Shown here: positions 6,751-47,501 of the stretch, in pieces
Layout: each line of letters starts with the position of its first letter
Position numbering within the stretch: position 1 is the first letter of the stretch
Program-made: the position numbers and the translations under genes
NCBI RefSeq assembly: GCF_014203855.1
Contig: NZ_JACHJV010000003.1
Location: forward strand, 124,001 to 188,000
Length of the DNA stretch: 64,000 nucleotides
Source: Kitasatospora kifunensis
GTDB taxonomy: Bacteria; Actinomycetota; Actinomycetes; Streptomycetales; Streptomycetaceae
Direction of reading: 5' to 3'
The notes under the pieces: model-generated
What the model was told of the DNA's origin: nothing
The model's input: the letters and a program-made list of their open reading frames with translations, nothing else
The model's database searches: none

Positions 6751-9228
6751 TCAGCTCGCGGAGGTGCCCGTCGCCCAGATCGGGAAGCCGGCCGCCGAGT
6801 AGATCACCACGTTGCCGTCTGCCTGCACGGCCAGTCCGTCGCCGGGCTGGTTGTCGGTCATGGTCGCCCAGATCGGGGTGCCGCCGTCATAGATGACGAA
6901 GTTGCCGTCGGCCTGTGCCGCGAGGGTGGCGTTGGGGTGCCCCACGGTGTTGCTGGCCCAGATGGCCGCGCCATCGCTCAGCCGGTAGAGCACCAGGTTG
7001 CCGTCGGTCTGAAAGGTCAGTCGGGTCTTGGCCCCGGTCCAGGTGGTGCCGCCGGTGTACTGCGTGCCGTTGCCGGCGATGGTGATGCCCGAGGCCGGGG
7101 TGGAGGCGGTGGTGCCGAGGCCAGCGCCCCAACTGTTGGTGCTGAAGGCGTTGTTCCACCAGACGTGCTGCAGCGAGCCGTCGGAGAGGCCGGCGTAGAT
7201 GTCGAACTGGCCGTGCACGGCGCTGTAGGTGGCCGCGGGGTCGCCGGTTACGGTGCCCGAGGCGTTGACGGTCTCGGTGCTGGGGTTGACCATGCCCGGG
7301 CCCCACCACCAGTGCTGGAGCGTGCCCGAGCTGTTGCGGGCGAACACCACCTGCTGCGAGCCCGTGTACAGCGCGGTCGGCCGACCGATGGCGCTGCCGC
7401 CCCAGTTGTTGGAGTCGGGGGCGCTCATGCCCGGCGCCCACCAGAAGTGTTCCAAGGTCCCGTCGGAGACCGGAGCGTAGATGTCGAACTGGCCGCCGGC
7501 GGCGTTGTAGGTCGCAGCCGGGTCACCGGTGAGGGTGCCGGTGTTGCTCGCCCAGGTGTCGGTGCTGGGGTTGACCATGCCCGGGCCCCACCACCAGTGC
7601 TGGAGCGTGCCCGAGCTGTTGCGGGCGAACACCACCTGCTGCGAGCCCGTGAAGACCGCGGTCGGGGCGCCGACGATGTTTCCGCCCCAGTTGTTCGTGC
7701 CGGGAGCGTTCATCCCCTGGGTCCACCACCAGTGCTGCAGGGTCCCGTCGGACAGCCGGGCGTAGACGTCGTACTGGCCGGTGACCGGGTTGTAGGAGGC
7801 GGCCGGGACGCTGTCCAACGGTGCCGCGGCATCGGGCCAGGTCTCGGACTGCGCGGCACCCATGCCCGGCGCCCACCACCAGTGGTGGAGCTGCCCGTCG
7901 GTGCCACGGCCGAACACGTTCTGCTGGCCGCCCGAGCTCAGGAACGACACCGCGGTGCCTGTCAGCGACCCGCCCCAGTCCTGGTTGATCACACCGGAAC
8001 CGTTGTAGTACCAGTGGTGCAGGTGGCTGTCCGGGCCAGGACCGAAGTAGTCCTGCTGGGTGTCGGAGGCCAGCAGTGCGGCACCGGCCGTGCCGGTGTT
8101 GTTCGTCACGCTGACGTTCACCGGCGCGGAGGTGGTCGATGCGCCCGAGGAACTCGTGGCGGCAACCGTCAGCTGGTGGCCGCCCTGCGAGGCGGTCGTG
8201 GTGTCCCAGGTGACGGCGTAGCCGGACCCCGCGTTCGATGAGTTGCCGATCTGCCTGCCGTCGACGAAGTACGTCATGGCGGCGGCGCCCGACGCGGCGG
8301 CGGTCAGCGTCACGGTGCCGGTCAGGGTACTGGACGGCACGGACAAGCTCACCGCCGTCGGCGCGTTGGTCACGGTGAAGGTGATCGGCGCGCTCGGGTA
8401 GCTGTGGGCCTGACCGTCGATCTCGTAAGCGCCGGCCTGGACGGTGTAGGTGCCGTTCGGCAGGCCGGTGGTGTTCCAGGCCTGCGCGTAGTTGCTGGCG
8501 CCGCTGCCGCCGTTGACGGTGAAGGAGCCGGTCGGGCCGGTGAAGTTGTAGTACAGGGAGTTGATGACGCCCTGGGCGGTGGGCGGCGCGGTGAGGTTGA
8601 CCACCCCGGAGACGGTCTGGCCGTTCGTCAGCGGCGTGCCGTTGGCGTCGACGGTGACGTTGAATCCGGCTGGAATCGGGGTGGGTGCGCCGACCGGGCT
8701 GACGTAGCCCAGGAAGCTGTAGGAGCCTTCGAGTTGGGCCTCGATGGAGGCTGCCGTGCCGGTGACCTCGGTGACGCGGCCGCCCTGGTTGCCGCCGATC
8801 TCGGTGATGGTGCCGTTGGAGCTGACGCTCTCCACCAGGCCGACGTGCGCTCCACCACTGGCCTTGCTCGGGAATCCCGCGCCGCCGAAGATCATGGCGT
8901 CGCCCGGCCGCGGGGTGTAGCCCGAGGGGTCGTGCCAGGTGCGGTTGTTGTCGCCGTAGGTGACGAAGGTGGTGACCGTGGCGCCGAGCGCGGAGACGTC
9001 CACGCCGCCCTGCTGCCACGCCCACTTCGAGAACTCGGCGCACCACTCCACGCTGCAGTCCACGACACCGCAGCCATTGGACCCGAGCTGTCCGCGGGCC
9101 GCGGAGATGATCTTGCTCGTGTCCGTTGCCGCCGACGCCGACTGGACCGTGACCGCGCTCAGGGTGAGACCGGACAACGCGACGCAGGCGGCCGCGGCAA
9201 TGGTGCGTAGGCGTCGATTCGAGGGCAT
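6751..9228 (-). CDS. Secreted CHAP-domain protein with Ig-like, propeller and bulb-lectin domains (cassette A)
   Basis: 825 residues, exported by a Sec signal peptide (about 1-34, ending SASAA). A CHAP amidase/endopeptidase domain follows with Cys63 (SVEWCAEFSKWAW), His128 (GGAHVGLV) and Asn147 (IGGNQGG) as the likely catalytic set, suggesting peptidoglycan cleavage. Two Ig-like beta domains span about 185-375. Then come five or so PLL-type propeller blades, each with an LQHWWW-like strand. The C-terminus (about 705-825) is a bulb-type mannose-binding lectin with three QxDGNxVxY repeats (FQTDGNLVLY, AQADGNFVIY, VQADGNVVIY). ATG at 9228 is preceded by AAGGAGAG. Downstream of the 103-residue and peptide genes on the same strand. 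Blade DNA is partly duplicated: about 90 bases recur 285 bp apart, near 7288 and 7573. Confidence 0.85.
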   Translation of the reverse strand: MPSNRRLRTIAAAACVALSGLTLSAVTVQSASAATDTSKIISAARGQLGSNGCGVVDCSVEWCAEFSKWAWQQGGVDVSALGATVTTFVTYGDNNRTWHDPSGYTPRPGDAMIFGGAGFPSKASGGAHVGLVESVSSNGTITEIGGNQGGRVTEVTGTAASIEAQLEGSYSFLGYVSPVGAPTPIPAGFNVTVDANGTPLTNGQTVSGVVNLTAPPTAQGVINSLYYNFTGPTGSFTVNGGSGASNYAQAWNTTGLPNGTYTVQAGAYEIDGQAHSYPSAPITFTVTNAPTAVSLSVPSSTLTGTVTLTAAASGAAAMTYFVDGRQIGNSSNAGSGYAVTWDTTTASQGGHQLTVAATSSSGASTTSAPVNVSVTNNTGTAGAALLASDTQQDYFGPGPDSHLHHWYYNGSGVINQDWGGSLTGTAVSFLSSGGQQNVFGRGTDGQLHHWWWAPGMGAAQSETWPDAAAPLDSVPAASYNPVTGQYDVYARLSDGTLQHWWWTQGMNAPGTNNWGGNIVGAPTAVFTGSQQVVFARNSSGTLQHWWWGPGMVNPSTDTWASNTGTLTGDPAATYNAAGGQFDIYAPVSDGTLEHFWWAPGMSAPDSNNWGGSAIGRPTALYTGSQQVVFARNSSGTLQHWWWGPGMVNPSTETVNASGTVTGDPAATYSAVHGQFDIYAGLSDGSLQHVWWNNAFSTNSWGAGLGTTASTPASGITIAGNGTQYTGGTTWTGAKTRLTFQTDGNLVLYRLSDGAAIWASNTVGHPNATLAAQADGNFVIYDGGTPIWATMTDNQPGDGLAVQADGNVVIYSAAGFPIWATGTSAS

Positions 9229-9329
9229 GGCGGGTTCTCTCCTTGGCGGGTGGCGATGGGGACGGGGTGTTCCGATCCGGTGTACCGGTGCCGAGTTGAC
9301 AGATCGGGATCGACTCGACTGATGGCTCG

Positions 9330-9402
9330 TCAGCTGTCCAGCGTCGCCAGGGGAAGGACGCTGAGGATCGCGGTGGGCCGGCCGGACGGGGCAGGACTTC
9401 GG
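9330..9402 (-). pseudogene. 3' scrap of a third copy of the 103-residue gene
   Basis: These 73 bases encode the last two dozen codons of a 103-residue-type gene (ending LSVLPLATLDS). They match cassette B's copy (21635 onward) more closely than the neighbouring intact copy, which ends NALPLAALDN. The flank at about 9295-9330 also resembles the sequence just beyond the cassette B gene. It marks an old tandem duplication or recombination between the cassettes. Confidence 0.7.
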
Positions 9403-9420
9403 GGTCCTGGTGAGGGTGTC

Positions 9421-9732
9421 TCAGTTGTCCAGCGCTGCCAGCGGCAGCGCGTTGAAGTCGTCGGTGTGCCAGTCGAGGAGGGCAGGGCTTCGGGTGGCCC
9501 GGGCGCACAGGCCTTGGGCGGCCCGGATGGCGTCGGCGGCGGTCTCGGCCCGCAGGAGCACGACCAGTTCGAGCTCGCCGGCGGTCGCCGGAGCCTGGAC
9601 GCGGACATGGTCGAGTCGGTCGGCTGTGGTCGCGTGGGCCCAGACCAGGTCGACCACGGTGGCAGGGCGCGGGTTCCGGTCGCGGGCCGGTGGCCCGGTC
9701 AGGTGAGTGGCCACCACGTAGCGCGCGTTCAA
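9421..9732 (-). CDS. 103-residue conserved protein of cassette A
   Basis: Not recognised as a known family. It has no signal peptide or membrane segment. The pattern is MNARYVVA, then PATVVDLVWAHATTADRLDHV, then a strand-rich ELELVVLLRAETAADAI, an Ala-rich helix and a tail ending PLAALDN. An alpha/beta ferredoxin-like fold is plausible. Start is TTG, 3 bases after the stop of the secreted-peptide gene upstream, so translation is probably coupled. A paralogue of equal length sits in the same place in cassette B (21635-21946). About two thirds of residues are shared by eye, which argues strongly that this is a real gene. Confidence 0.75.
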   Translation of the reverse strand: MNARYVVATHLTGPPARDRNPRPATVVDLVWAHATTADRLDHVRVQAPATAGELELVVLLRAETAADAIRAAQGLCARATRSPALLDWHTDDFNALPLAALDN

Positions 9733-9735
9733 CGC

Positions 9736-9909
9736 CTAGCCCCAGCAGCCGCCGCAGACGAGGTCGGGGGCCGTGTCCGCAGCGGGGGCCGCGGGCGCGG
9801 GGGCCACCGGAGCGGGGGCCGCGGGCGCGGCGTCAGCGGGCGCGGCGGAGAGTCCGATGCCGAACAGGGCGATCAGGCCGAACAGGACGAATCGCAGTGT
9901 TCCAGGCAT
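9736..9909 (-). CDS. 57-residue secreted peptide with C-terminal CGGCWG (cassette A)
   Basis: Signal peptide MPGTLRFVLFGLIALFGIGL...APADA, then a Pro/Ala-rich linker of about 18 residues, then DLVCGGCWG at the C-terminus. ATG at 9909 follows GGAGGT at ideal spacing. The cassette B paralogue (21950-22108, 52 residues) keeps the signal peptide and the CGGCW ending while the linker has diverged. That pattern indicates selection on the two cysteines, glycines and tryptophan. The two Cys could form a disulfide, bind metal, or be part of a processed exopeptide. First gene of the minus-strand operon; divergent from the regulator at 10185. Confidence 0.75.
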   Translation of the reverse strand: MPGTLRFVLFGLIALFGIGLSAAPADAAPAAPAPVAPAPAAPAADTAPDLVCGGCWG

Positions 9910-9994
9910 GGCGGGACCTCCGTTGGGTGTTTGTGGGGTGCCGGCATGACCGGGTCGCTCCGGTGCCGGATCCGTCGGGCGGTCGGCGCCCTGC

Positions 9995-10077
9995 GGTGAA
10001 CAGAAGTCTTCCGCGCAGCTCAGCCGGGCGGAAGCGGCTGCCGCTGGCCCGAAGGTTCCATGGCACGATCGGGCCAG
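9995..10077. promoter_or_regulatory. Divergent promoter block shared by cassettes A and B
   Basis: About 80 bases, starting GGTGAACAGAAGTCTTCC and running to the GGTTCCATGGCACGATC segment, recur almost unchanged at 22195-22278. It lies between the peptide gene and the regulator in both cassettes. Non-coding conservation at this level suggests promoters plus a regulator-binding site. Confidence 0.6.
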
Positions 10078-10184
10078 CACCGGCGCGGCCGGCGCGGACC
10101 TTGCTCCGGTCGGACCGGTCGTGTCACGCTCGGACGACACACGGGCATCACATCGGCATCACACGGGGGACGGGGGCTGGAGCG

Positions 10185-11165
10185 ATGCTGCGCGCTCTGG
10201 GACTGGATGCGGTCAGCGAGCAGGTGTACCAAGAACTGCTGGCCGAACCGACGTTGGACGCAATACTGCTGGCCGAGCGCCTCGGCCTGAGTCAGGATCA
10301 GGTCGGTGCGAGTCTGGACACGCTGGCCGACCTCGCGTTGCTGCGGATGTCGCGCGAGGCGCCGCAGCAGCGGCGGCCGGTCAGCCAGGAGCGCGCCCGC
10401 GCGCTCCTGCTGCGCCGTCAGGAGGAGGAACTCCGAGCCCGCCTCGCCGCCCTGGAGGCCAACCGCATCGCGGTTGCCACCGCGGCCGAGCGGGCGGCCC
10501 GCGAGCGGCAGCGGATCCCCACCGGCACCGAACAGCTCGACGGCCTGGACGAGATCCAGTCCCGCCTGGAGTCCCTGCTCCAGAGCGCCACCACCGAGAT
10601 CTGCTCGATCGTCCCCACCCTGATGCCCCCCGAAGCCCTGGAGGCCGCGCGCCCCCTGGACGAGGACCTGCTCAGGCGCGGCATCACCCAGCGGACGCTC
10701 TGTCACGAGGGCGTGCGAACCAACCCCCGCGCCCTCGCCTACGGGCGCTCGATGGCCGCCGTCGGTGCGCAGCTGCGCACCGCGCCGGCGCTGCCGCACC
10801 GCCTGCTGGTGGTTGACCGGGCCACCGCCCTCGTCCCGCTCGACCCCGCCTCGCCGACCGCCAGCGCCGTGCTGGTCACCATCCCCGGGATCGTGGCCGG
10901 CCTGGCCGAGCTGTTCGACCGGATCTGGGCGGACGCCGTCCCGCTGGACCAGGCCCCCGCCCCCGACTGTGCCACCGGCATCACCGCCGCTGAACGCGAA
11001 CTCCTGAAGATCCTCTCCACCGGCCTGACCGATGAGGTCGCCGCCAAGCGCCTGGGTGTCTCCGTACGCACCGTCAAGCGCCGGATGGAGGAGCTGATGC
11101 GCCGTCTGGAAGCTGGTTCCCGCTTCGAAGCCGGCTTCAAGGCTTGCCAACACGGCTGGCTCTGA
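10185..11165 (+). CDS. TrmB/LuxR-type transcriptional regulator of cassette A
   Basis: 326 residues. The N-terminus (MLRALGLDAVSEQVYQELL ... LLAERLGLSQDQVGASLDTL) is a TrmB-like winged helix. Residues 75-125 are an Arg/Glu/Ala-rich helix, probably a coiled coil for dimerisation. A middle alpha/beta region resembling a PLD-like/TrmB-associated domain follows (EICSIVPTLMPPEAL; LLVVDRATALVPLD). The C-terminus is a LuxR-type HTH (ITAAERELLKILSTGLTDEV, then RLGVSVRTVKRRMEEL). It has no receiver domain. It reads away from the peptide/103/CHAP operon and shares the promoter block, so it probably controls that operon. I chose ATG 10185 because the family normally begins at this helix; the ribosome-binding site is weak (GGAG). 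Confidence 0.82.
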   Translation: MLRALGLDAVSEQVYQELLAEPTLDAILLAERLGLSQDQVGASLDTLADLALLRMSREAPQQRRPVSQERARALLLRRQEEELRARLAALEANRIAVATAAERAARERQRIPTGTEQLDGLDEIQSRLESLLQSATTEICSIVPTLMPPEALEAARPLDEDLLRRGITQRTLCHEGVRTNPRALAYGRSMAAVGAQLRTAPALPHRLLVVDRATALVPLDPASPTASAVLVTIPGIVAGLAELFDRIWADAVPLDQAPAPDCATGITAAERELLKILSTGLTDEVAAKRLGVSVRTVKRRMEELMRRLEAGSRFEAGFKACQHGWL

Positions 11166-15508: not shown

Positions 15509-18500
15509 GTGTCCCGCTCCCACCTCCCCGCCGACGAGCTCGACGCACGTACCGACCGACGAAGCACCCACTTATTCGCGACCGACGCCCAGTTCCGTGA
15601 CGCTGCGCCCCTGAACGCCGTCACCGAGGCGATCCGGCGCCCCGACCTACCGCTCGCCGACCTGGTGGCCACCGTGATGGAGGCATACGCCGACCGCCCC
15701 GCCCTGGGCGAGCGTGCCACCGAAAAGGTCACCGACCCGCAGACGGGCCGCACCACGCTGCGCCTGCTGCAGCGGTTCGACACGCTCACCTACGGCGAAC
15801 TCTGGGAGCGGGTGGGTGCGGTGGCCTCCGAGTGGCGGCACCACCCCGAACAGGCGCTGGGCCCCGGCGACTTCGTCGCCCTCCTCGGGCCCACGAGCGC
15901 CGAGTACACCGTGGCGGACCTGGCTTGCGTCCGCTTGGGCGCGGTGTCCGTCCCCCTGCAGTCGGGTGCTCCAGCGGCACACCTGGCCCCCATCGTCGAG
16001 CAAGCCGGACCGCGCCTGCTCGTGGTGGACGTCGACCAGCTGGACGTCGCGCTCGAGGTTGCGGCGAGGGCCCCCTCGCTGGGCAGGATCGTCGTCATCG
16101 GCCACCGGCCCGAGGCCACCGCCCACCAGGAGAAGCTGGAGTCCGCGCGCGCCCGGCTCGCGGCGCAGGGCCGGAGCGTGGCCCTGGACACGCTGGCGTC
16201 GATCGTCGAGCGGGGAAGGGCGCTGCCCTCGCTCCCCCGGGTTCCCGACGGGTCGGCGGCCGACGCGCTGAGCGCGCTGATCTACACCTCGGGAAGTACC
16301 GGCACCCCCAAGGGGGCCATGTACACCGAGCGTCTGGTCCGGCAGTTCTGGGTCGACTTCGTGCCCGGCCAGGCGGCGCGGCCCTCCATCACGCTCAACT
16401 ACCTGCCGTTGAGTCACATGATGGGCAGGGGGGTGCTGTTCGGGACGCTCGCCAAGGGGGGCCTCGCCGCTTTCGCGGCCTCCAGCGACCTGTCGACACT
16501 CTTCGAGGACCTCTCCCTGGTCCGTCCCACCGAAATCGTCATGGTTCCCCGCATCTGCGACATGCTCTTCCACCACTACCGGGCACAGTTGTCCCACCGG
16601 GCCAAGGCAGGCGGCGGGACAGGCGGCGACGCGGCCGAGCAGGTGATGGCGGAGCTGCGGGAGAAGGTCATGGGCGGCCGCCTCCTGTGGGCCGTCAGCG
16701 CCTCGGCCCCGCCGAGCGCCGAGACGACGGCGTTCATCCAGGACTGCCTCCACGTCAGACTGCTCGACGGCTACGGGTCGACGGAAGCCGGGGTCGTCTC
16801 CCTCGACGGCCGGGTGCTGCGCCCGCCGGTGACCGATCACAAGCTGGCCGACGTACCCGAGCTGGGATACTTCGCAACCGACTCGCCGTACCCCAGGGGC
16901 GAACTGCTGATCAGGTCCGAGCGGCTCGTCCCCGGATACTTCCGGCGTCCGGACGCCACCTGCGAGGTCTTCGACGAGGACGGCTTCTACCGCACGGGCG
17001 ACATCATGGCCCGCGTCGGCCCCGACGAACTGAGGTACGTCGACCGCCGCTCCAACGTCCTCAAGCTGTCCCAGGGCGAATTCGTCGCCCTCTCCCGCCT
17101 GGAGGCGCTCTTCAACGGCAGTCCGGTCGTCCGGCAGATCTTCCTGTACGGCAGCGGCACCCGCGCCTACCTGCTCGCGGTGGTCGTGCCGACGAAGGAC
17201 GCCCTGGAGCGCGTCGACGGGGATGCCCGGCGCCTGCGGCCGATCCTGCGGGAGTCCCTGCAGAAGCTCGCCACCGAGGCGGGGCTGAACTCCTACGAGA
17301 TCCCACGGGATCTGCTCGTCGAGACCGAGCCGTTCACTCAGGAGAACGGACTGCTCTCCGGGGTGCGCAAGCCGTTGCGGCCGGCCCTGACGAAGCGGTA
17401 CGGCGAGCGTCTCGAAGCGCTGTACACCCAGCTGTCCGACCGGGAGGCCGAGGAACTCCGGACGCTGCGTCAGACCGGCACCGACCAGCCGGTATCGGCG
17501 ACCGTGCTCCGGGCTGCGCAGGCGCTCCTGGGGTTGGAAGAGGGTGTCGTGGAACTTGGCACACGCTTCCTCGAACTCGGCGGTGACAGCCTCACGGCAC
17601 TGTCGTTCTCCCAGCTGATGAAAGAGACCTTTCACGTCGACATCCCGGTCAACGTGATCATCAACCCGGTCAACTCGCTGCAGCAGGTGGCCGATCACAT
17701 CGAGCGGGCACTCGCGGCGGAACACCGCCGTCCCACCGCCGACAGCGTCCACGGCCCGGACGCGAGGCGGCTGGAGGCGGCCCAGCTGCGGCTGGACGCG
17801 TTCCTCGACGCGCGGACCGTCGAGCAGGTCGAAAGGCCGGCCGGTCCGCTGCCCGAGGCCCGGACCGTCCTGCTGACCGGCGCCAACGGCTACCTGGGCC
17901 GCTTCCTGTGCCTCGAGTGGCTGGAACGCGCGGCGCAGCGCGGCGGCACGCTGGTGTGCGTGGTCCGCGGCTCCTCGGCCGAGGCAGCCCGGGCACGGCT
18001 CGATGAGGCCTTCGACAGCGGCGACCCGGAACTCATGGAGCGCTACCGGAAGTCCGCCGCCCAGCATCTTCGCGTGGTCGCCGGCGACATCGGGGAACCG
18101 CGTCTCGGACTCGACGAGGAGACCTGGCAGCACCTGGTCGACACCGTGGACCTGATCGTCCACCCGGCGGCACTGGTCAACCATGTCCTGCCCTACGACC
18201 AGCAGTTCGGTCCCAACGTGCTGGGAACGGCCGAACTGATCAGGCTCGCGGTCACCTCCCGGATCAAGCAGTTCACCTACCTGTCGACAGTCGCCGTCGT
18301 ATTCGGGAACGCGGCAGCCGCCGACGAGTCGGCGGACATCCGCACTGCCTGCGGGGCACGCGACCTCGACGGTGACTACGCGGACGGTTACGCGGCCAGC
18401 AAATGGGCCGGCGAGGTGCTGCTGCGCGAGGCGCACGAAGCGTTCGGTCTGCCGGTCGCCGTCTTCCGCTCGAACATGATCCTCGCGCACCCACGCTACC

Positions 18501-19042
18501 GCGGTCAGCTCAACGTCCCGGACGTCTTCACCCGCCTCGTGCTGAGCCTGCTGGCGACGGGCATCGCACCCGGCAGCTTCTACGCCCGGGGCACCGGCGA
18601 GGGCCGTGGGCACTTCGACGCACTCCCGGTGGACTTCACCGCGCGGGCCATCACCTCGCTCGGTGACGACGCACGAGAGGGCTACCGGACCTACAACGTG
18701 GTCAACCCGCACGACGACGGCATCTCACTCGACACGGTCGTCGACTGGCTGCTGGCAGCCGGACATCCCCTGACACGTGTCCAGGACCACGCCGAGTGGA
18801 TCGTCCGCTTCGAGACCGCCCTGCGCGGCCTGCCCGACCGCCAGCGCCAGCATTCGCTGCTCCCGCTGCTGCACGCCTTCACCGAGCCGCAACAGGCACT
18901 CGCCGGATCCGCTCTGCCGGCGGACCGGTTCCGCGCGGCAGTACGGGCCGCAGCCCTCGACGACGACAACGACATCCCCCGCCTGTCACCGGACCTGATC
19001 ACCAAGTACGTGGCCGATCTCCGGGCGCACCACCTGATGTGA
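15509..19042 (+). CDS. car: Carboxylic acid reductase (adenylation-carrier-reductase)
   Basis: 1177 residues, the expected length of a bacterial CAR, which reduces carboxylic acids to aldehydes with ATP and NADPH. Adenylation domain (about 45-640): P-loop YTSGSTGTPKGAMY at about 257, DGYGSTEAG, and YRTGDIM. Carrier domain: LELGGDSLTALSFSQ with phosphopantetheine Ser694, which needs a phosphopantetheinyl transferase not found here. Reductase domain (about 785-1170): LLTGANGYLGRF for NADP and YAASK (Tyr961, Lys965) as the SDR-type active site. GTG start with AAAGGAG 7 bases before it. Probably regulated by the GntR gene upstream. The natural acid substrate is unknown; no clear pathway partners flank it. 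Confidence 0.92.
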   Translation: MSRSHLPADELDARTDRRSTHLFATDAQFRDAAPLNAVTEAIRRPDLPLADLVATVMEAYADRPALGERATEKVTDPQTGRTTLRLLQRFDTLTYGELWERVGAVASEWRHHPEQALGPGDFVALLGPTSAEYTVADLACVRLGAVSVPLQSGAPAAHLAPIVEQAGPRLLVVDVDQLDVALEVAARAPSLGRIVVIGHRPEATAHQEKLESARARLAAQGRSVALDTLASIVERGRALPSLPRVPDGSAADALSALIYTSGSTGTPKGAMYTERLVRQFWVDFVPGQAARPSITLNYLPLSHMMGRGVLFGTLAKGGLAAFAASSDLSTLFEDLSLVRPTEIVMVPRICDMLFHHYRAQLSHRAKAGGGTGGDAAEQVMAELREKVMGGRLLWAVSASAPPSAETTAFIQDCLHVRLLDGYGSTEAGVVSLDGRVLRPPVTDHKLADVPELGYFATDSPYPRGELLIRSERLVPGYFRRPDATCEVFDEDGFYRTGDIMARVGPDELRYVDRRSNVLKLSQGEFVALSRLEALFNGSPVVRQIFLYGSGTRAYLLAVVVPTKDALERVDGDARRLRPILRESLQKLATEAGLNSYEIPRDLLVETEPFTQENGLLSGVRKPLRPALTKRYGERLEALYTQLSDREAEELRTLRQTGTDQPVSATVLRAAQALLGLEEGVVELGTRFLELGGDSLTALSFSQLMKETFHVDIPVNVIINPVNSLQQVADHIERALAAEHRRPTADSVHGPDARRLEAAQLRLDAFLDARTVEQVERPAGPLPEARTVLLTGANGYLGRFLCLEWLERAAQRGGTLVCVVRGSSAEAARARLDEAFDSGDPELMERYRKSAAQHLRVVAGDIGEPRLGLDEETWQHLVDTVDLIVHPAALVNHVLPYDQQFGPNVLGTAELIRLAVTSRIKQFTYLSTVAVVFGNAAAADESADIRTACGARDLDGDYADGYAASKWAGEVLLREAHEAFGLPVAVFRSNMILAHPRYRGQLNVPDVFTRLVLSLLATGIAPGSFYARGTGEGRGHFDALPVDFTARAITSLGDDAREGYRTYNVVNPHDDGISLDTVVDWLLAAGHPLTRVQDHAEWIVRFETALRGLPDRQRQHSLLPLLHAFTEPQQALAGSALPADRFRAAVRAAALDDDNDIPRLSPDLITKYVADLRAHHLM

Positions 19043-19182: not shown

Positions 19183-21504
19183 TTACATAGCCGGGCTTCC
19201 GTTGTGCGCCGTCAGGTCGTAGACGTTCAGCACACCCGCCGACGTCGCAGACGAATCGATCACGTTGCCGTTCGATGCGTCGGCGGTGAGGATCGCCAGA
19301 GTGCCGTTCTGATCGACCACTGCATTGGCAACGCCGGCCATGGCAGGGGTGTTGCTGGTGGCGGTCCAGTCGTACAGGTTGATCACACCGGCCGAGGTGA
19401 TCGACGTGTCGAACAGGTGGCCGTTGCCATCGCGGGTGAGCACCGAGATCGTGCCCTTGCCATCAACCGCCGCAGCCGGGTTGCCACTGGTCGCCGGAGT
19501 CCCGTTGTGCGCCGTCAGGTCATACACGTTCAGCACACCCGCCGAGGTGATGGACGAGTCGACGACGTGGCCATCGGCCGCATCGCGGGTGAAGATCGAC
19601 AAGGTGCCACTCGGGTCGACGACCGCGCTGGCGTCACCGGCCATGGCAGGGGTGCTGCTGGAGGCGGTCCAGTCGTACAGGTTGATCACACCGGCCGCAG
19701 TGATCGAGGTATCGAACAGGTGGCCGTTGCCATCGCGGGTGAGCACCGAGATCGTGCCCTTGCCATCAACCGCCGCAGTCGGGTTGCCACTGGTCGCCGG
19801 AGTCCCGTTGTGCGCCGTCAGGTCATACACGTTCAGCACACCCGCCGAGGTGATGGACGAGTCGACGACGTGGCCATCGGCCACATTGCGGGTGAAGATC
19901 GACAAGGTGCCACTCGGGTCGACGACCGCGCTGGCGTCACCGGCCATGGCAGGGGTGCTGCTGGAGGCGGTCCAGTCGTACAGGTTGATCACACCGGCCG
20001 CAGTGATCGACGTGTCGAACAGGTGGCCGTTCCCGTCGCGGGTGAGCACCGAGATCGTACCCTTGCCATCAACCGCCGCAGCCGGGTTGCCACTGGTCGC
20101 CGGAGTCCCGTTGTGCGCCGTCAGGTCATACACGTTGATCACGCCGGCCGAGGTGATGGAGGTGTCGAGCACGTGGCCGTTCGACACGTCACGGGTGAAG
20201 ATCGAAACGGCTCCACTCGGGTCGACGACCGAGGACGCGTGGGTGGAGTTGTTGACGACGAACGATGTCGTTGTCGACGCCGGTGAAGCCGCGCCCGCCG
20301 AGTTCAACGCTTTCGCGGTGACCGTGTGAATACCGTCCGCCAGCTGGGTGGTGTCTACGCTGACCGGGAATCCACCACCTGCCGTCGAGGTGAAGGTCTG
20401 GGTCCCGTCGACGGTGTAGACGACCGAGGTGGTGTTGCCGCTGAGGTTGGTGGAGGACAGCTCGATGCTGCCGATCGCCTGGCCCGGGGGCACGCTCACC
20501 GTCGGCGTCGACGGGGTGTTGTTCACACTGATGGTCAGCGTCTTGACAGAGTCGATCTGGTTGGTGTTGGTGGCGTCGAAGGCCGCGGCTGTGATCGTAT
20601 GCGTGCCGGCGGACAGACCAGCGGTGTTGAAGGCCAGGTTGTGGGACGGGCTGGCCCCGCCGCCGCTGTCGCCGCTGCTGATCAGGCCGGCGCCGCCGTT
20701 GGCCGCCGGGTTGGTGTCGTCAAGGTAGTACCAGACCTTGCTGGCAGCGGTCTCGCCGGCAGTCAGGGTGATCGAACCGGAGACTGTCTGGGCACTGCTG
20801 TAGTTGGCCGCGGCGCCGTTCCAGGTGCCGATCGAGGTGACGTTGGCGGAAGGAGTACCTCCGACCGGGCTGGCAAAGCCTTCGACGTAGACGCTCGCTC
20901 CGCTCTCGCTCCAGACGTACTGACCGACCTTGTCACCGATGTCCTGACGGACGAGGTACGGGTTTGAGCTGTCGCCTTCGTTTCCACCGACTGAGTCGAA
21001 GGTGACGCCGTCACTGTGGACGTTGGTGACGATGGCGACGTGGCCGTGGCCGCCGTAGATCGAGCTGTCGAAATAGACGGCGTCGCCGACGTGCGGCGTG
21101 GTCGACCACGTGTGGTGGGCTTGCCCGTAGGTGTAGAAGCTGTTCGCGCCGTCGCCCAGGTTGCCGTCGACGATGACGCCGGCCTGACTCCACGCCCAGC
21201 CGGCGAAGTCGGCACACCAGGCATGGGTCTGCCCGCTTTCCGGTGGGCTGGACGCGCTGCCGGGATTGGAGCAACTGTTGCCCTGATTGGTGTGGGGGGC
21301 GTAGTAGCCGGCGTTGCCGTTGGTAGACCCGGACGCGGTGTTACTGCACGGTCCTGCTCCGAGCTGCGAGGCGGCGAAGCTGGCGACGTTTTGGGCAGCG
21401 GTCGTCGCCGACGCCGATCCTGCGGGAATCGTAACGAGCGCGGTGGAGCAGAGCAGCGATGTGGCGAGGCCGGCGACGAAACGACGCGAACGTATGCGGG
21501 ACAT
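19183..21504 (-). CDS. Secreted CHAP-domain protein with Ig-like domains and 101-residue tandem repeats (cassette B)
   Basis: 773 residues. Signal peptide about 1-33 (ending SASA). CHAP domain: Cys97 (HAWCADFAGWAW), His155 (GGHGHVAIVT) and Asn175 (VGGNEGD). An insertion of about 30 Gly/Ser/Asn-rich residues precedes the catalytic Cys. Two Ig-like domains (about 225-400). The C-terminal half is three copies and part of a fourth of a 101-residue beta repeat, each with two half-units such as DGKGTISVLTRDGNGHLFD and DPSGTLSIFTR; a propeller or beta-solenoid is likely. ATG 21504 was chosen over TTG 21516 because GGAG is correctly spaced. Same order as cassette A: peptide, 103-residue gene, CHAP gene. 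Confidence 0.85.
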   Translation of the reverse strand: MSRIRSRRFVAGLATSLLCSTALVTIPAGSASATTAAQNVASFAASQLGAGPCSNTASGSTNGNAGYYAPHTNQGNSCSNPGSASSPPESGQTHAWCADFAGWAWSQAGVIVDGNLGDGANSFYTYGQAHHTWSTTPHVGDAVYFDSSIYGGHGHVAIVTNVHSDGVTFDSVGGNEGDSSNPYLVRQDIGDKVGQYVWSESGASVYVEGFASPVGGTPSANVTSIGTWNGAAANYSSAQTVSGSITLTAGETAASKVWYYLDDTNPAANGGAGLISSGDSGGGASPSHNLAFNTAGLSAGTHTITAAAFDATNTNQIDSVKTLTISVNNTPSTPTVSVPPGQAIGSIELSSTNLSGNTTSVVYTVDGTQTFTSTAGGGFPVSVDTTQLADGIHTVTAKALNSAGAASPASTTTSFVVNNSTHASSVVDPSGAVSIFTRDVSNGHVLDTSITSAGVINVYDLTAHNGTPATSGNPAAAVDGKGTISVLTRDGNGHLFDTSITAAGVINLYDWTASSSTPAMAGDASAVVDPSGTLSIFTRNVADGHVVDSSITSAGVLNVYDLTAHNGTPATSGNPTAAVDGKGTISVLTRDGNGHLFDTSITAAGVINLYDWTASSSTPAMAGDASAVVDPSGTLSIFTRDAADGHVVDSSITSAGVLNVYDLTAHNGTPATSGNPAAAVDGKGTISVLTRDGNGHLFDTSITSAGVINLYDWTATSNTPAMAGVANAVVDQNGTLAILTADASNGNVIDSSATSAGVLNVYDLTAHNGSPAM
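19201..20260 (-). repeat. 303-bp tandem repeats inside the cassette B CHAP gene
   Basis: The marker GTTGTGCGCCGTCAGGTC recurs at 19201, 19504, 19807 and 20110, exactly 303 bases (101 codons) apart. Units 2 to 4 are nearly identical at DNA level, including synonymous positions, pointing to recent expansion or homogenisation. The unit nearest the gene's 3' end has diverged more. Confidence 0.9.
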
Positions 21505-21634
21505 ATTGGACTCCAAGACAGTGCGGGTGTCGTGCGAGTTGACATGCTCCAGGCCGTCGGCGGGGGTGGCGTTGGCCCACAGGATGTCTGTGAGGATGAG
21601 TTGACGGATCCGAATCGCCTCGGATGAGGGCTCG

Positions 21635-21946
21635 TCAGCTGTCCAGCGTCGCCAGGGGAAGGACGCTGAGGGCCGCGGTGTGCCAGCCGGACAGGGCGGG
21701 GCTTCGGGTGGCCCTGCTGAACAGGCCTTCGGCGGTCCGGGCGGCGTCCGAGGCGCTCTCCGCCCGCAGGAGCACGACCAGTTCGAGTTCGTCGGCTGTC
21801 ACGAGAGCGGGGGCGCGGACGTGGTCGAGCCGGTCGGCTGTGGTCGCGTGGGCCCAGAGCAGGTCGACCACAGTGGCGGGGTGCGGGTTCCGGTCGCGGG
21901 CCGGCGGTCCGGTCAGTTGAACGGCCACCACGTAGCGCGCGTTCAC
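21635..21946 (-). CDS. 103-residue conserved protein of cassette B
   Basis: Paralogue of the gene at 9421-9732 with the same length and the same blocks: MNARYVVA, PATVVDLLWAHATTADRLDHV and ELELVVLLRAES, ending LSVLPLATLDS. No known family recognised and no signal peptide. GTG start 3 bases after the stop of the peptide gene, as in cassette A, so coupling is conserved too. Lies 130 bases ahead of the CHAP gene. Confidence 0.75.
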   Translation of the reverse strand: MNARYVVAVQLTGPPARDRNPHPATVVDLLWAHATTADRLDHVRAPALVTADELELVVLLRAESASDAARTAEGLFSRATRSPALSGWHTAALSVLPLATLDS

Positions 21947-21949
21947 CGG

Positions 21950-22108
21950 CTAGCTCCAGCAGCCGCCGCAGACCAGGCCGGGAGCCTGGTCCGCAGCGGT
22001 GGCCAGCGGAGCGGGGGGCGCGGTCGCGGCGTCGGCGGGCGCGGCGGAGAGTCCGATGCCGAACAGGGCGATCAGGCCGAACAGGACGAATCGCAGCATT
22101 CCGGGCAT
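21950..22108 (-). CDS. 52-residue secreted peptide with C-terminal CGGCWS (cassette B)
   Basis: MPGMLRFVLFGLIALFGIGL, APADA cleavage region, a short Ala/Pro linker, then GLVCGGCWS. The linker is five residues shorter than in cassette A. ATG at 22108 follows GGACCTCC on the plus strand (GGAGGT on the coding strand). See the cassette A copy for interpretation. Confidence 0.72.
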   Translation of the reverse strand: MPGMLRFVLFGLIALFGIGLSAAPADAATAPPAPLATAADQAPGLVCGGCWS

Positions 22109-22194
22109 GGCGGGACCTCCGTCGGGTGTGTGTGGGGGGTGTTGGCACGGCGGGTCGCTGCGGTGCCGGAGCCGTCGGGCGGTTGGCGCCCTGT

Positions 22195-22278
22195 GGTGAA
22201 CAGAAGTCTTCCGCGCAGCTCAAGCGGGCGGAAGCGGCTGCCGCTGGCACGAACGTTCCATGGCACGATCGGGCCAGG
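22195..22278. promoter_or_regulatory. Divergent promoter block, cassette B copy
   Basis: Near-identical to 9995-10077 (GGTGAACAGAAGTCTTCC through GGCACGATCGGGCCAG), with only a few substitutions. It is retained although the regulator downstream is truncated, so the operon may still answer to the cassette A regulator. Confidence 0.55.
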
Positions 22279-22381
22279 ACCCGCACAGCGACTGCGGCCC
22301 CTGCTCCACGCGGACCGTCGTGTCACGCTCGGAGAGCAGATGGGCATCACAGGGCTCACACGGGGGACGGGGGCTGGAGCG

Positions 22382-22580
22382 ATGCTGCGCGCTCTGGGAC
22401 TGGATGCGGTCAGCGAGCAGGTGTACCAAGAGCTGCTGGCCGAACCGACGTTGGACGCAACGCTGCTGGCCGAGCGCCTCGGCCTGAGTCAGGACCAGGT
22501 CGGTGCGAGCCTGGACACGCTGGCCGACCTCGCGCTGCTGCGGATGTCGCGCGAAGCACCGCAGCAGCAGCGGCCGGTCA
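22382..22580 (+). pseudogene. Truncated TrmB/LuxR-type regulator of cassette B
   Basis: Codons 1-66 match the regulator at 10185-11165 almost residue for residue (MLRALGLDAVSEQVYQELL; LGLSQDQVGASLDTL; SREAPQQ). Identity stops at 22580, right after the shared CGGCCGGTCA. The sequence beyond belongs to an integrase-like gene on the other strand. The middle domain and LuxR HTH are missing, so at most a stub winged helix could be made. The frame stays open into later sequence, but that reading is meaningless. Confidence 0.8.
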
Positions 22581-22789
22581 AACACCTTTTCGGAGCTGCC
22601 ATGGGAGCCCCACGCGTGCGAGCGGATGGCGAACAGCGCGGCCAGGGAGCGCTGCAGAGCTGCGGTACCTGGCAACGTCGCGAAGTCGTAGTCCCGCACA
22701 ATGCCGTCGCGGTTGCGGTGGTGCACCACCAGACCCTTGATCGGGTCCAGGACCTCGGGCGCGGCGTGGTCAGCCGACGGCAGCGACAC
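22581..22789 (-). pseudogene. N-terminal fragment of an integrase-like protein
   Basis: From a Met at 22789 the minus strand reads GLVVHHRNRDGIVRDYDFATL, then LQRSLAALFAIRSHAW. To my recollection this is the opening of a streptomycete site-specific recombinase family. It ends at the junction with the truncated regulator, so only about 70 codons remain. Confidence 0.5.
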
Positions 22790-22954
22790 CGAGTGACCTC
22801 TAGCCGCGCCAGCGTGTTGCGTAACGATGCGTCAAGGACGCTACCAGAGTGGCGGAAGTCACAGGGCGGCTGGAGGTCACCGTCCGCGCCTCGATTCGAC
22901 AAGAGGACGGTACCCAACCCGACCACCCGTCGGCAGCGAGGAGAACCCATCAGC

Positions 22955-27069: not shown

Positions 27070-27207
27070 CATCTGTTATCTCCCAGGAAATCCCGGCCTT
27101 CAGGCCGGGAAGGAATGGGCGCTTGGCGTGGAGGCGCGGAGCGCCGGGATTTCTCTTCGTTGTCGGTGAGGGGCTGGGATGTCGGTGGGGGTCGGTAGGT
27201 TGGTGGG

Positions 27208-28467
27208 GTGCATCTTCGGTACTCGTATCGCCTGTATCCGACGGCGGGTCAGTGTCAGGCGCTGGCCCGGACGTTCGGTTGTGCTCGGGTGGTGTTCAAC
27301 GATGGGCTGGCCGCCCGGAAGGTCGCCTGGCGGGCGGATCGGTCGCGGATCGCGCTGGGGGCGTTGGCGAAGGCGGTGATCACGGACGCGAAGCGGACCA
27401 CCGAACGGGCGTGGTTGGCCGCGGTGTCGGTGGACGCGCTGCAGTCCTCGCTTCGCGATCTGGATGCCGCGTACCGCGGCTTCTTCGACGCGGTGTCCGG
27501 CAAGCGGCGCGGTGGTGGCCGGGTGGGCCTGCCGGTGTTCAAGTCGCGTAAGGAGAAGCGGCAGTCGGTCCGGTTCAGTCGCAACGGGTTCCGGATCCGG
27601 GGCAACGGGAAGCTGAACCTGGCGAAGATCGGCGACGTACGGGTGAAGTGGTCCCGCAAGCTGCCCGCCGACCCGTCGTCGGTGACGATCGTGCTGGATC
27701 CGTCCGGGCGCTACCACGCGTCGTTCGTCGTCGACGTCGAACCGGAGGCGCTGCCCGAACTCGATGCCGAGGTGGGCATCGACCTGGGCCTTGCCACCTA
27801 CGCGGTCCTGTCGGACGGCGCGGTGATCGACAATCCCCGGTTCCTGCGCAAGGCCGAGAAGCGGTTGAAGGCCGCGCAGCGGGAGTTGTCCCGCAAGGCC
27901 AAGGGGTCCAAGAACCGGGCCAAGGCCCGCGTCAAGGTCGCCAAGGCGCACGCCAAGGTGGCCGACACCCGCAAGGACTGGCTGCACAAGCAGACGACCG
28001 GGATCATTCGCGAAAATCAAGCGATCTACCTGGAAGATCTGAACGTGCGCGGCCTGGGCCGTGGCCGCCTCGCCAAGTCCGTCCACGACGCCGGCTGGTC
28101 CACCTTCCGCCGCATGCTGGAGGAGAAGGCGCTCCGTTACGGGCGCCATGTCGGGATCGTGCACCGTACGTTCCCCTCCTCCCAGCTCTGCTCCGCGTGC
28201 GGGCACCGCGACGGCCCCAAGCCACTCGCGGTCCGCGCGTGGGTGTGTGGTGCGTGCGGTGTGTCGCATGATCGTGACCTCAACGCTGCTCGTAACATCC
28301 TGGCCGCCGGGCGGGCGGACAGGTTAAACGCCCCTGGAGGGCCGGTCAGACCCGGTGTGGCAATCCCACACCAGGCACGGCCCGTTGAACGGGGAACCCA
28401 CCGGAACGCCGCCGATATGGGGCGCAAGCCCCGTGCCGACGGCGCGGCCGGAATCCCCGCGCCTTAG
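27208..28467 (+). CDS. tnpB: TnpB RNA-guided nuclease homologue, copy 1
   Basis: 419 residues. N-terminal MHLRYSYRLYPTAGQ and HTH region, then a RuvC nuclease with Asp192 (VGIDLGLA), Glu276 (IYLEDLNV) and Asp355/357 (SHDRDLNAARN), all present. The zinc ribbon is complete (CSACGHRDG ... CGACG; Cys328, 331, 347, 350). TnpB proteins cut DNA guided by an RNA made from the element's right end; they also help retain the element. GTG start shared with copy 2. The last 50 codons overlap the presumed omega RNA. Against copy 2 it has one extra Gly near residue 103 and scattered changes. Confidence 0.92.
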   Translation: MHLRYSYRLYPTAGQCQALARTFGCARVVFNDGLAARKVAWRADRSRIALGALAKAVITDAKRTTERAWLAAVSVDALQSSLRDLDAAYRGFFDAVSGKRRGGGRVGLPVFKSRKEKRQSVRFSRNGFRIRGNGKLNLAKIGDVRVKWSRKLPADPSSVTIVLDPSGRYHASFVVDVEPEALPELDAEVGIDLGLATYAVLSDGAVIDNPRFLRKAEKRLKAAQRELSRKAKGSKNRAKARVKVAKAHAKVADTRKDWLHKQTTGIIRENQAIYLEDLNVRGLGRGRLAKSVHDAGWSTFRRMLEEKALRYGRHVGIVHRTFPSSQLCSACGHRDGPKPLAVRAWVCGACGVSHDRDLNAARNILAAGRADRLNAPGGPVRPGVAIPHQARPVERGTHRNAADMGRKPRADGAAGIPAP

Positions 28468-28484
28468 CGCGGGGAGGATGTCAA
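28300..28484 (+). ncRNA. Probable omega RNA (reRNA) of TnpB copy 1
   Basis: The 3' end of tnpB and the element's right end form successive stems: GTGTGG/CCACAC, CCCGTT/AACGGG, GGGGC/GCCCC, and CCCCGCGC, CTTA, GCGCGGGG just before GAGGATGTCAA. The same stems occur in copy 2 with G-U or loop changes that keep pairing. The guide would begin with the flank CTCCTTGCCACTG. Confidence 0.65.
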
Positions 28485-30833: not shown

Positions 30834-31451
30834 ATGCGCCTGACCCGCCCCGCTCTCACTGTTGCAGCAGTGGCGGCTTCCACCTCAGCCTTTGGCCTGC
30901 CCCTCCTCTTCGCGGGCTGGGTCTCCCACAGTTCCGATACCAGGCAGGTCCGCACGGTCAGCGCCCCGGGCACCTCGCGAAGCCAAGCCGAATCTCCCCA
31001 GGACCCCTCCACCGATCCGGACCCGCAGGCATCAGCGCCCCCTTGTCGCAGCTACGGCGGCCCCTACTGCGGCTCGGTGAGAACATACTGGGGTGGCTGT
31101 GACTGGGATTGGGGCCTGAGCTTCGGATTCAAAAACCCTGACTGGATCTGCCCCGAAGACCCCCGCCCCACCCCCTCGGCCACACCCAGCCCGTCGGGCA
31201 CGCCCAGTTCCTCGGTCACACCCAGCCCCACGGCCACGCCCAGTTCCGCAGCCGCACCCAGCCCCACGGCCAGGCCCAGACCTCCGGCCAAGCCCAAATC
31301 ATCGGCCAGGCCCAGACCTCCCGCTAAGCCCAGACCTCCGGCCAAGCCCAGCCCATCAGCCAAGCCCAGTTCCTCGGCCACCCCCAGTTCCTCGGCCAAG
31401 CCCAGCCCCACGGCCACGCCGACCCCCGCCGGAAGCAGCAGCTCCCCCTGA
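30834..31451 (+). CDS. Secreted protein with Pro/Ser/Lys-rich repeat tail
   Basis: 205 residues. Signal peptide or N-terminal anchor (1-30), a short Cys-containing region (CRSYGGPYCGSVRTYWGGCD, four Cys with ICPED), then about 95 residues of degenerate short repeats (SPSGTPSSS, SPTATP, RPPAKP) typical of a wall-spanning linker. ATG follows AGAGGA. No catalytic motif. The repeat DNA is low-complexity CCCAGC-type sequence, prone to slippage. Confidence 0.65.
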   Translation: MRLTRPALTVAAVAASTSAFGLPLLFAGWVSHSSDTRQVRTVSAPGTSRSQAESPQDPSTDPDPQASAPPCRSYGGPYCGSVRTYWGGCDWDWGLSFGFKNPDWICPEDPRPTPSATPSPSGTPSSSVTPSPTATPSSAAAPSPTARPRPPAKPKSSARPRPPAKPRPPAKPSPSAKPSSSATPSSSAKPSPTATPTPAGSSSSP

Positions 31452-31772
31452 CCAGCCCCGCTGGGAGGGCGCCGGCGACCGGCAGCGGCAGCGGCAGCGG
31501 CAGCGGCAGCGGCTGTGCATGCCCGCCGACAGCGGTCGAACCACGGGTGGCCCTGCTGTGCCGGGACGACTCATCGGGGCCGACGGGGCACAGCGGGCGT
31601 TCTCCAACCCGCAGGTCCAGCCACGGAGGACTGAGCGTGCGCCCGACCTACGGCCGCGCAGGCCCGCTGGACGGAACCGGTTGGATGCGGCGCCGTCCCG
31701 GCGTGGCCGACCCGGCCGCCTCCCCGGAGGCCGGCCGTGCATTGCGGGTACGGCCGGGGCAGCGGCGCATCA
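31452..31772. other. Intergenic with a GGCAGC microsatellite
   Basis: Bases 31481-31513 are tandem GGCAGC (about five and a half copies). The rest shows no convincing gene on either strand. Confidence 0.6.
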
Positions 31773-35414: not shown

Positions 35415-35440
35415 GACGGCTCCCAGAGAAAAGGCGCCCC

Positions 35441-35463
35441 CCGCGGCACGGGTCGTGCCGCGG
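35441..35463 (-). promoter_or_regulatory. Hairpin in the leader of the S53 gene
   Basis: CCGCGGCACG, loop of 3, CGTGCCGCGG: perfect 10-bp stem ending about 26 bases upstream of the TTG, followed on the coding strand by GGGGGCGCCTTTTCTC. The stem plus short T-run could attenuate transcription. Confidence 0.45.
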
Positions 35464-35615
35464 CCAGGCGCCGGATTCAGACGAGGGCAGCGAGCACCGA
35501 AAGTGCTTCCGGTGCACGGATATTGAGTCATCGGACTCGACAACCGGTCAACACCCGCGGTGGCGGCGAGGGAGACCGGCGTGGTGCGTCGTACGCGCGG
35601 CCCGCGCCTCGCACT

Positions 35616-35648
35616 GGCGCCGCCGTCCAACACCCCGACGGCGGCGCC
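35616..35648 (-). terminator. Hairpin terminator of the bulb-lectin gene
   Basis: GGCGCCGCCGTC and GACGGCGGCGCC form a perfect 12-bp stem, 16 bases beyond the stop at 35664. Confidence 0.65.
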
Positions 35649-46062: not shown

Positions 46063-46250
46063 TTGACATCCTCCCCGCGCTAACGCGCGGGGATTCCGGC
46101 CGCGCCGTCGGCACGGGGCTTGCGCCCTGTGCCGTCGGCGTTCCGGTGGGTTCCCCGTTCAACGGGCCGTGCCTGGCGTGGGATTGCCACACCGGGTCTG
46201 ACCGGCCCTCCAGGGGCGTTTAACCTGTCCGCCCGCCCGGCGGCCAGGAT
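46063..46250 (-). ncRNA. Probable omega RNA of TnpB copy 2
   Basis: Mirror of the copy 1 structure: GGTGTGG/CCACGCC with a G-U pair, CCCGTT/AACGGG, and a final CCCCGCGC, GTTA, GCGCGGGG stem before GAGGATGTCAA. The guide would begin GCAAGATCCATCG, from the IS5 remnant. Confidence 0.6.
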
Positions 46251-47336: not shown

Positions 47337-47501
47337 CCCACCAACCTACCGACCCCCACCGACAACCCAGCCCCTCACCGACAACGAAGAGCAATCCCGG
47401 CGCTCCGCGCCTCCACGCCAAGCGCCCTCCCCCACCCTCCGGGCGGGGGGACCCCCATCTTCCCGGCCTGAAGGCCGGGTTTTCCTGGGAGATAACAGAT
47501 G

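Follow-up and report, generated by a model that had tools for sequence, protein, structure and literature searches.

A 64,000-nt stretch of contig NZ_JACHJV010000003.1 of Kitasatospora kifunensis (the window, within which positions are counted) carried two copies of a cassette with the gene order regulator (+), secreted-type peptide (-), 103-aa protein (-) and CHAP exoprotein (-). This cassette is probably a peptide-pheromone signalling system, in which a secreted peptide with a tryptophan motif would be the message and the adjacent TrmB-PLD-LuxR regulator (PLD, phospholipase D) its receptor. What gives the pair the look of a signal and its receptor is that the C-terminal, often repeated pentapeptide of the peptide co-varied with the sensor domain of the regulator across related loci.

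The gene association recurred well beyond the window. With the pair of 103-aa proteins as query, 78 of 394 genomes of the bacterial family matched at E ≤ 0.001, and 31 loci from other genomes were read. A homologous TrmB/LuxR regulator was present in the stretch examined in 30 of them, and was encoded on the opposite strand within ~530 bp in 29; in L085 it lay 4.4 kb away. Searching instead with five regulators against named genomes gave 113 loci, the best 80 of which form the regulator-found set, from Streptomyces, Kitasatospora, Streptacidiphilus, Actinospica, Catenulispora, Actinomadura, Kineosporia, Micromonospora, Plantactinospora, Actinoplanes and other genera. A 103-aa homologue at E ≤ 0.01 accompanied the regulator in 73 of these 80 loci, on the divergent strand in 70; the loci of Actinospica, Catenulispora, Micromonospora and others were reached through the regulator, several having 103-aa homologues. 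When 200 genomes from the family of the window were scanned with a regulator profile (11 candidates scored per genome), 160 matched at E ≤ 1e-60, with up to 10 matches per genome. From these profile matches 20 further, mostly more distant loci were chosen by hand (L218–L237); a 103-aa homologue was found in 15 of them and a secreted-type peptide with Trp in the last four residues in 13, with ends including DTWGWG, DMGWQ, NTIWD (three copies) and DAGWQ (two copies). A phylum-wide profile search for the 103-aa protein matched only 7 of 396 genomes, all of the same family, with 13 candidates scored per genome, and this count is not evidence of absence elsewhere.

The peptide gene beside the regulator, usually directly upstream of the 103-aa gene, encoded a precursor with basic residues at its start, then a hydrophobic stretch and a linker that varies. 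Precursors were 57 and 52 aa long in the window and ~40–92 aa in relatives (by best-scored starts), and the hydrophobic core behind the basic start, located with a simple score, is a predicted secretion signal. Sixty peptides were curated from the 80 regulator-found loci, 53 picked by script and seven selected visually in knowledge of the motif (L109, L113, L138, L170, L171, L175, and L178). Tryptophan was the penultimate residue in 55 of the 60, compared with 101 of 1416 other short secreted-type open reading frames (ORFs) in the same loci. The end [ILFVYAS].W[DG] was found in 50 of the 60, five of these matches coming from the peptides picked by eye, and in 7 of the 1416 control ORFs, several of which resembled further members. 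Two to five copies of the pentamer (e.g., GIGWD, SINWD, VIGWD) occurred in 39 precursors; the tail of the L112 precursor reads DGPGIGWDGPGIGWDGPGIGWDAPGARIIGWDTTQTDGPGIGWD. Pairs of pentamers were identical in 91 of 101 comparisons within precursors and in 900 of 5255 between precursors. The window peptides were a cysteine variant (VCGGCWG/S), with kin among the loci read in L070–L072 (CGACWS, CGGCWS, and CGACWA) and in Actinospica (CAGCWS). A gene-independent DNA search of 200 genomes for IGWD followed by a stop codon gave 20 matches. Of these, 15 had a regulator (12) and/or a 103-aa homologue (14) no more than 1.5 kb away, and 17 of the 20 resembled secreted peptides by eye; none of the 17 matches to a scrambled GIWD-stop was cassette-linked. 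In L104, upstream of 6999–7274, a peptide gene with many SISWD copies was broken by a masked or N-run stretch, and these repeats may have broken the assembly.

The motifs fell largely into clades on the regulator tree. Their correlation with the regulator was computed on 66 of 70 regulator–peptide pairs (L133, L134, L154, and the Trp-less L082 were left out), and partial correlations on the 43 loci for which a non-redundant 103-aa sequence was also available; as these are Mantel-type statistics on related sequences, the permutation counts are not exact probabilities. Pairwise regulator identity correlated with motif identity at r = 0.74 (0 of 5000 permutations), and at 0.65 when pairs more than 70% identical were omitted. 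Taken singly, the sensor domain gave the highest correlation (0.77), compared with 0.60–0.64 for the winged helix, the coil and the LuxR domain. Given the other domains, the sensor retained a partial r of 0.54 with the motif (0 of 1000), whereas the other domains given the sensor dropped to -0.13. The pattern was reversed for the signal peptide, with 0.055 for the sensor given the others (256 of 1000) and 0.356 for the others given the sensor (0 of 1000), while the 103-aa protein was intermediate (0.215, 5 of 1000, and 0.350, 0 of 1000, respectively) and its correlation with the motif was -0.15 once the regulator was accounted for. Such a pattern would be expected of a receptor and the ligand that it binds, and not of simple shared descent.

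The two window cassettes comprised the following features.

10185–11165 (+): copy-1 regulator, 326 aa, proposed pheromone receptor (Pfam, AlphaFold model, fold matches)
10045–10076 (no strand): copy-1 candidate operator, a 32-bp dyad-like block (alignment of five clade loci)
9736–9909 (-): copy-1 peptide precursor, 57 aa, with Pro/Ala linker and C-terminal VCGGCWG, proposed pheromone (homologous Trp-ended peptides)
9421–9732 (-): copy-1 103-aa ferredoxin-like protein, without Pfam match (structure model, family scans)
9330–9403 (-): remnant, repeating the 3' end of a gene of the 103-aa type, ...LSVLPLATLDS (DNA repeat, translation)
6751–9228 (-): exported effector 1, 825 aa, with CHAP, two Big_7 Ig-like domains, seven DUF346 repeats and a weak B_lectin-like C-terminus (Pfam)
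22382–22597 (+): copy-2 regulator fragment, first 72 residues only (sequence homology)
22245–22276 (no strand): copy-2 candidate operator, one mismatch to the pattern (genome pattern scan)
21950–22108 (-): copy-2 peptide precursor, 52 aa, ending VCGGCWS (sequence)
21635–21946 (-): copy-2 103-aa protein (sequence)
21514–21606 (-): remnant of another member of the 103-aa family, ILTDILWANATPADGLEHVNS, in frame with CHAP-2 (profile match, translation)
19183–21516 (-): exported effector 2, with CHAP, two Ig-like domains and 303-bp (101-aa) repeats (Pfam, BLASTP, repeats); the ORF is listed from TTG, with an alternative ATG start at MSRIRSRRF

Copy 2 spanned 19183–22597 and repeated the regulator start, the intergenic region, the peptide and the 103-aa gene. 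The shared order, strand and 3-base gap between peptide and 103-aa gene, noted in the original prediction from the sequence alone, were borne out (9733–9735 and 21947–21949), as was a duplication that includes the promoter region: the stretch running from the 103-aa gene up to the start of the regulator was identical at 794 of 888 aligned positions (89%, or 82% with gap columns counted). Repeat blocks between the copies were 82–96% identical, and protein identity was 76% for the 103-aa proteins and 85% for the peptides. The divergent regulator ascribed to both copies was full length in copy 1; copy 2 kept 72 residues, 89% identical to copy 1, after which homology stopped. Past this fragment, the minus strand of 22598–22950 resembled by eye the start of an integrase-type protein, a possible cause of the truncation. 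A third, diverged cassette (L061) lay on the same contig ~215–227 kb from those in the window. Its regulator was 45% identical, its peptide ended in NSLTWG, and it also included a 103-aa homologue and an exoprotein in which NlpC/P60 and Ig-like domains were found.

The regulator was divided into a TrmB-type winged helix (residues ~1–67), a long helix (68–107), a PLD-like sensor (~111–252) and a LuxR/GerE domain (~262–326). In the copy-1 protein, PF00196 (GerE) scored 27.4 bits, above the Pfam cut-off of 23.5; PF01978 (TrmB) scored 19.2 bits (E 0.0011), below the curated 25.6, and the predicted fold agreed with it. The AlphaFold model (predicted local distance difference test, pLDDT, 92.2) showed the same four parts, and its closest folds were TrmBL2, TrmB and PLD-family proteins, with NarL/LuxR regulators for the C-terminus. 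The predicted sensor domain aligned with the TrmB sugar-binding domain 2f5t over 131 residues (Z 15.0, root-mean-square deviation, rmsd, 2.5), and the whole model with TrmBL2 5box at Z 17.0 and rmsd 21 over two domains. No tetratricopeptide repeat (TPR) appeared among the Pfam matches at E ≤ 1; no autoinducer (acyl-homoserine lactone)-binding domain was matched at that threshold either, the PLD-like domain sitting in its place. With dN/dS of 0.26–0.46 for the regulator and 0.28–0.61 for the 103-aa gene, both genes look to be under constraint, least so between the two window copies. Other TrmB/LuxR paralogues in the genome were mostly 29–34% identical to the regulator; eight stretches at such paralogues yielded one peptide-like ORF under a strict filter and no clear cassette member.

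The 103-aa protein was modelled as a β-α-β-β-α-β, ferredoxin-like fold (pLDDT 92.9). No Pfam family was found for it in a scan of 57 members, which gave four stray matches, and Foldseek matches of the model (ribosomal S6, ACT, and others) were too general to assign a function. Between regulator and peptide gene, the 32-bp block was conserved in an alignment of five loci of the window's clade, and the only two sites in the genome that matched it at ≤3 mismatches were those of the two window cassettes, making it a candidate operator. Across clades, a repeat-type operator regular expression matched 10 of 70 upstream regions and 23 of 1328 control regions, which is suggestive only.

Both effectors carried CHAP domains above the Pfam cut-off of 26 bits (34.6 and 44.3 for effectors 1 and 2), the only two in the genome at E ≤ 0.001, with Cys and His residues visible in the sequence (WCAEF/WCADF and AHVGLV/GHVAIV); they are predicted to cleave peptidoglycan. 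BLASTP aligned the two proteins at 31% identity from CHAP through both Ig-like domains (CHAP-1 residues 62–415), and Pfam found Big_7 in both, in copy 2 just under the curated cut-off. The claim that the proteins differ in every domain after CHAP was thus incorrect, as the Ig-like domains are common to both and only the tails differ, with seven DUF346 repeats and a weak B_lectin in effector 1 and 303-bp repeats in effector 2. In the 70 loci with a divergent 103-aa gene, 6 kb downstream were scanned for effector signatures, with the far side of the regulator as control. A CHAP, NlpC-like (DCSG) or Rpf signature was present downstream in 31 of the 70 loci and on the far side in 1 of 65, so that the linkage of peptide and 103-aa homologues to exported genes, which might have been accidental, was also seen elsewhere. 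Pfam supported 15 of 15 Rpf-type proteins (Transglycosylas) and five of seven CHAP proteins. Ig-like and FG-GAP domains were common to many downstream exoproteins. Other products included RHS (L112) and endonuclease/exonuclease/phosphatase-type proteins (L152 and L154), and the large secreted-type downstream proteins of L157 and L167 had no family match. The proposal of a constant core with an exchangeable exported effector largely held: the core recurs in many actinomycetes and exported effectors in many of the loci, although not in all.

Fragments of 103-aa-type genes stood at three junctions, one behind the copy-1 gene, one before CHAP-2, and one in L071 after its CHAP gene. They are read, from their sequence, as recombination scars placing one regulatory core before another effector. 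Polymorphic toxin modules of the RHS and contact-dependent inhibition (CDI) type similarly have a constant core, exchangeable exported ends and junction remnants; the cassette differs from them in exchanging the regulatory core upstream of whole effector genes. Elsewhere in the window, a secreted-looking protein (33234–35633, -) appeared sedolisin/subtilisin-like by eye, with no Pfam match to a protease family, and continued into 129-bp repeats similar to the repetitive ends of the CHAP exoproteins; it adjoined a protein with a weak B_lectin match (35664–36212).

Under the pheromone reading, the precursor would leave the cell by its Sec-type signal and be processed to a short peptide, the C-terminal CGGCW peptide in the window or one to five pentapeptide copies (GIGWD, SINWD, VIGWD) in relatives. 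At high concentration the peptide would re-enter the cell, probably via an oligopeptide permease, and bind the PLD-like sensor of the divergently encoded TrmB-LuxR regulator. The peptide-bound dimer would then act on the conserved site between the regulator and peptide genes and switch on the operon of peptide, 103-aa protein and exported effector, giving positive feedback and releasing an exoprotein, which may be CHAP, NlpC-like, Rpf-type or RHS. The 103-aa protein would be a co-expressed cytosolic modulator that may set the threshold, rather than a specificity determinant. Copy 2 probably serves the copy-1 regulator as a further output, driven in trans, since its own regulator is cut short and the promoter block is kept.

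Several observations weigh against this reading. The CGGCW type of the window is a single-copy minority class, found among the loci read in three other genomes and Actinospica, and the pentapeptide evidence comes from relatives. By the criteria used, 20 of the 80 regulator loci had no peptide (L104 and L110 nonetheless show SISWD-type ends), five of the 60 peptides extended beyond the motif (L133, L134, L144, L149, and L152), and those of L154 and L176 had no Trp in the last eight residues. Genome-wide, IGWD-stop was no more frequent than its scramble (20 and 17 matches), location alone being different. Downstream, 39 of 70 loci had no CHAP, NlpC-like or Rpf signature (eight have less than 2 kb of DNA there), and some, e.g., L103 and L153, had no evident exoprotein. 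After leaving out one of 24 proteins (L104, masked bases), 2 of 23 NlpC-like proteins matched PF00877 (NLPC_P60) at E ≤ 0.01; because of this, and since 10 contained Tachylectin and nine FG-GAP repeats, they are treated as exoproteins of uncertain enzyme class. Finally, TrmB sensors bind sugars, and another ligand is possible; in addition, one sub-group had the core beside a cluster typical of ribosomally synthesised and post-translationally modified peptides (RiPPs).

That sub-group bears on the strongest rival, which takes the peptide to be an antimicrobial or RiPP-like product that is secreted and for which the 103-aa protein provides immunity or maturation, with the regulator acting as a cluster-specific switch that responds to something else. 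Reversed order, with the 103-aa-type protein before the peptide, was observed in L168, L169, L174, L177, L179, L165, L170, L171, and L218, the peptides of the last three ending TWGWG. The first five adjoined an apparent YcaO (TOMM-type; thiazole/oxazole-modified microcin) RiPP cluster with a NarL-type regulator, where Pfam identified YcaO in two loci (L168 and L177) and, in the first of these, also a ThcOx/nitroreductase-type oxidase. The Pfam confirmation of a YcaO cyclodehydratase beside the core raises this rival slightly and lowers the pheromone reading slightly. The small precursors with a signal-like leader, the Cys-x-x-Cys of the window type, and the RHS, CHAP and other antagonistic-looking products near the core fit it as well. 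Still, it is unlikely: the motif tracks the sensor domain and, with the regulator controlled for, not the 103-aa protein; identical pentapeptides are repeated inside precursors; and outside the sub-group no modification enzyme was noticed to recur when gene starts were read by eye, with no family scan. A Pfam scan covering part of the window neighbours found no modification enzyme.

Less probable again is a regulator that, like TrmB, senses a sugar or cell-wall fragment, with the peptide as a secreted helper or inhibitor of cell-wall enzymes. The sensor is structurally nearest to PLD and TrmB domains, and many effectors are of cell-wall-acting types with Ig-like and FG-GAP, Tachylectin or DUF346 tails; however, the peptide also stands beside RHS (L112) and endonuclease-type (L152) products and in loci with apparently no exoprotein (L103 and L153), where a helper of cell-wall enzymes would make no sense of it, and the sensor–motif partial correlation is left unexplained. 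That shared ancestry alone accounts for the pattern, the block having been inherited and duplicated whole with peptide ends devoid of receptor information, is very improbable: related regulators do have similar peptides and signal peptides do follow the rest of the regulator, as descent predicts, yet the motif follows the sensor instead, opposite to the signal peptide, and pentamers are homogeneous within precursors.

As a pheromone system, the cassette most resembles the RRNPP family (Rap-Phr, PlcR-PapR, NprR-NprX, Rgg-SHP, and AimR-AimP), for which the part of the source available gives as definition a propeptide of 10–100 aa with a secretion signal and an adjacent TPR receptor of 250–500 aa (PMC10075063). 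The 57- and 52-aa propeptides and the divergent neighbouring receptor of 326 aa fall within these sizes, and both systems have a small exported-type propeptide adjoining the receptor, a C-terminal (candidate) signal, receptor–peptide pairing by clade, and adjacent candidate targets. The cassette is not classed as RRNPP because its receptor, a TrmB winged helix-turn-helix (HTH), PLD-like sensor and LuxR HTH, had no TPR match. It also differs in its occurrence in actinomycetes rather than Firmicutes, its divergent order, the extra ferredoxin-like 103-aa protein, and the 2–5 pentapeptide copies in many precursors. With archaeal TrmB/TrmBL it shares the winged helix and PLD-like sensor of the predicted model; unlike them, it has an additional C-terminal LuxR domain and a neighbouring secreted-type peptide, and its proposed ligand is a peptide, not a sugar. 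LuxR quorum regulators (TraR and RhlR) are likewise one-component proteins with a C-terminal GerE/LuxR DNA-binding domain, but the cassette sensor is PLD-like, with no autoinducer-binding domain found by Pfam. In Streptomyces coelicolor, BldK imports a peptide of ~655 Da presumed to be an extracellular signal, and peptides may differ by strain, according to the part of the source available (PMC9640686). A link of the cassette to this imported, presumed signal is putative.

Actinomycete signals are described, in the available part of one source, as typically small enzyme-made molecules (PMC10075063), and the accessible portion of a review of actinobacterial quorum sensing contains no such system (PMC4748050). 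The literature, covered mostly by titles and abstracts and thinly where behind subscription, gave no matching description of the cassette or its motifs, and an existing description is possible; the system is widespread and apparently undescribed. The receptor class, precursor type and accessory protein were not found described; peptide quorum sensing itself is known. We lean slightly towards a broader reading, in which Streptomyces, Kitasatospora and other actinomycetes share an unrecognised pherotype network: Trp-terminated pentapeptides, often from polypheromone precursors, would be read intracellularly by the TrmB-PLD-LuxR class in a clade-specific code, gating exported muralytic enzymes, toxins and some metabolite clusters. 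Its members may include the unidentified BldK-imported peptides that trigger development. If so, the main antibiotic producers would have a second signalling language, with regulator homologues in 160 of 200 family genomes, synthetic pentapeptides could be used to switch on exoproteins and clusters that are silent, and the identity of the imported developmental peptide (BldK, ~655 Da; PMC9640686) would become directly testable.

In L075, L080, L089, and L099 the cassette lay beside a gene resembling 5-enolpyruvylshikimate-3-phosphate (EPSP) synthase (by Pfam in L075, by eye in the rest) and biosynthetic-looking genes, and the cassette switch may also control specialised metabolism. Between the window cassettes, 15509–19042 (+) encoded a carboxylic-acid-reductase-like protein with AMP-binding, carrier and NAD_binding_4 domains. 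Two near-identical IS605-type OrfB/TnpB genes (Cas12f1-like TNB) at 27117–28484 and 46063–47427 were inverted and ~17.6 kb apart, their arms 94–96% complementary. At 31126–31456 (+, ORF 30834–31451), 18-bp repeats encoded the Pro/Ser/Thr/Lys-rich tail of a small secreted-looking protein.

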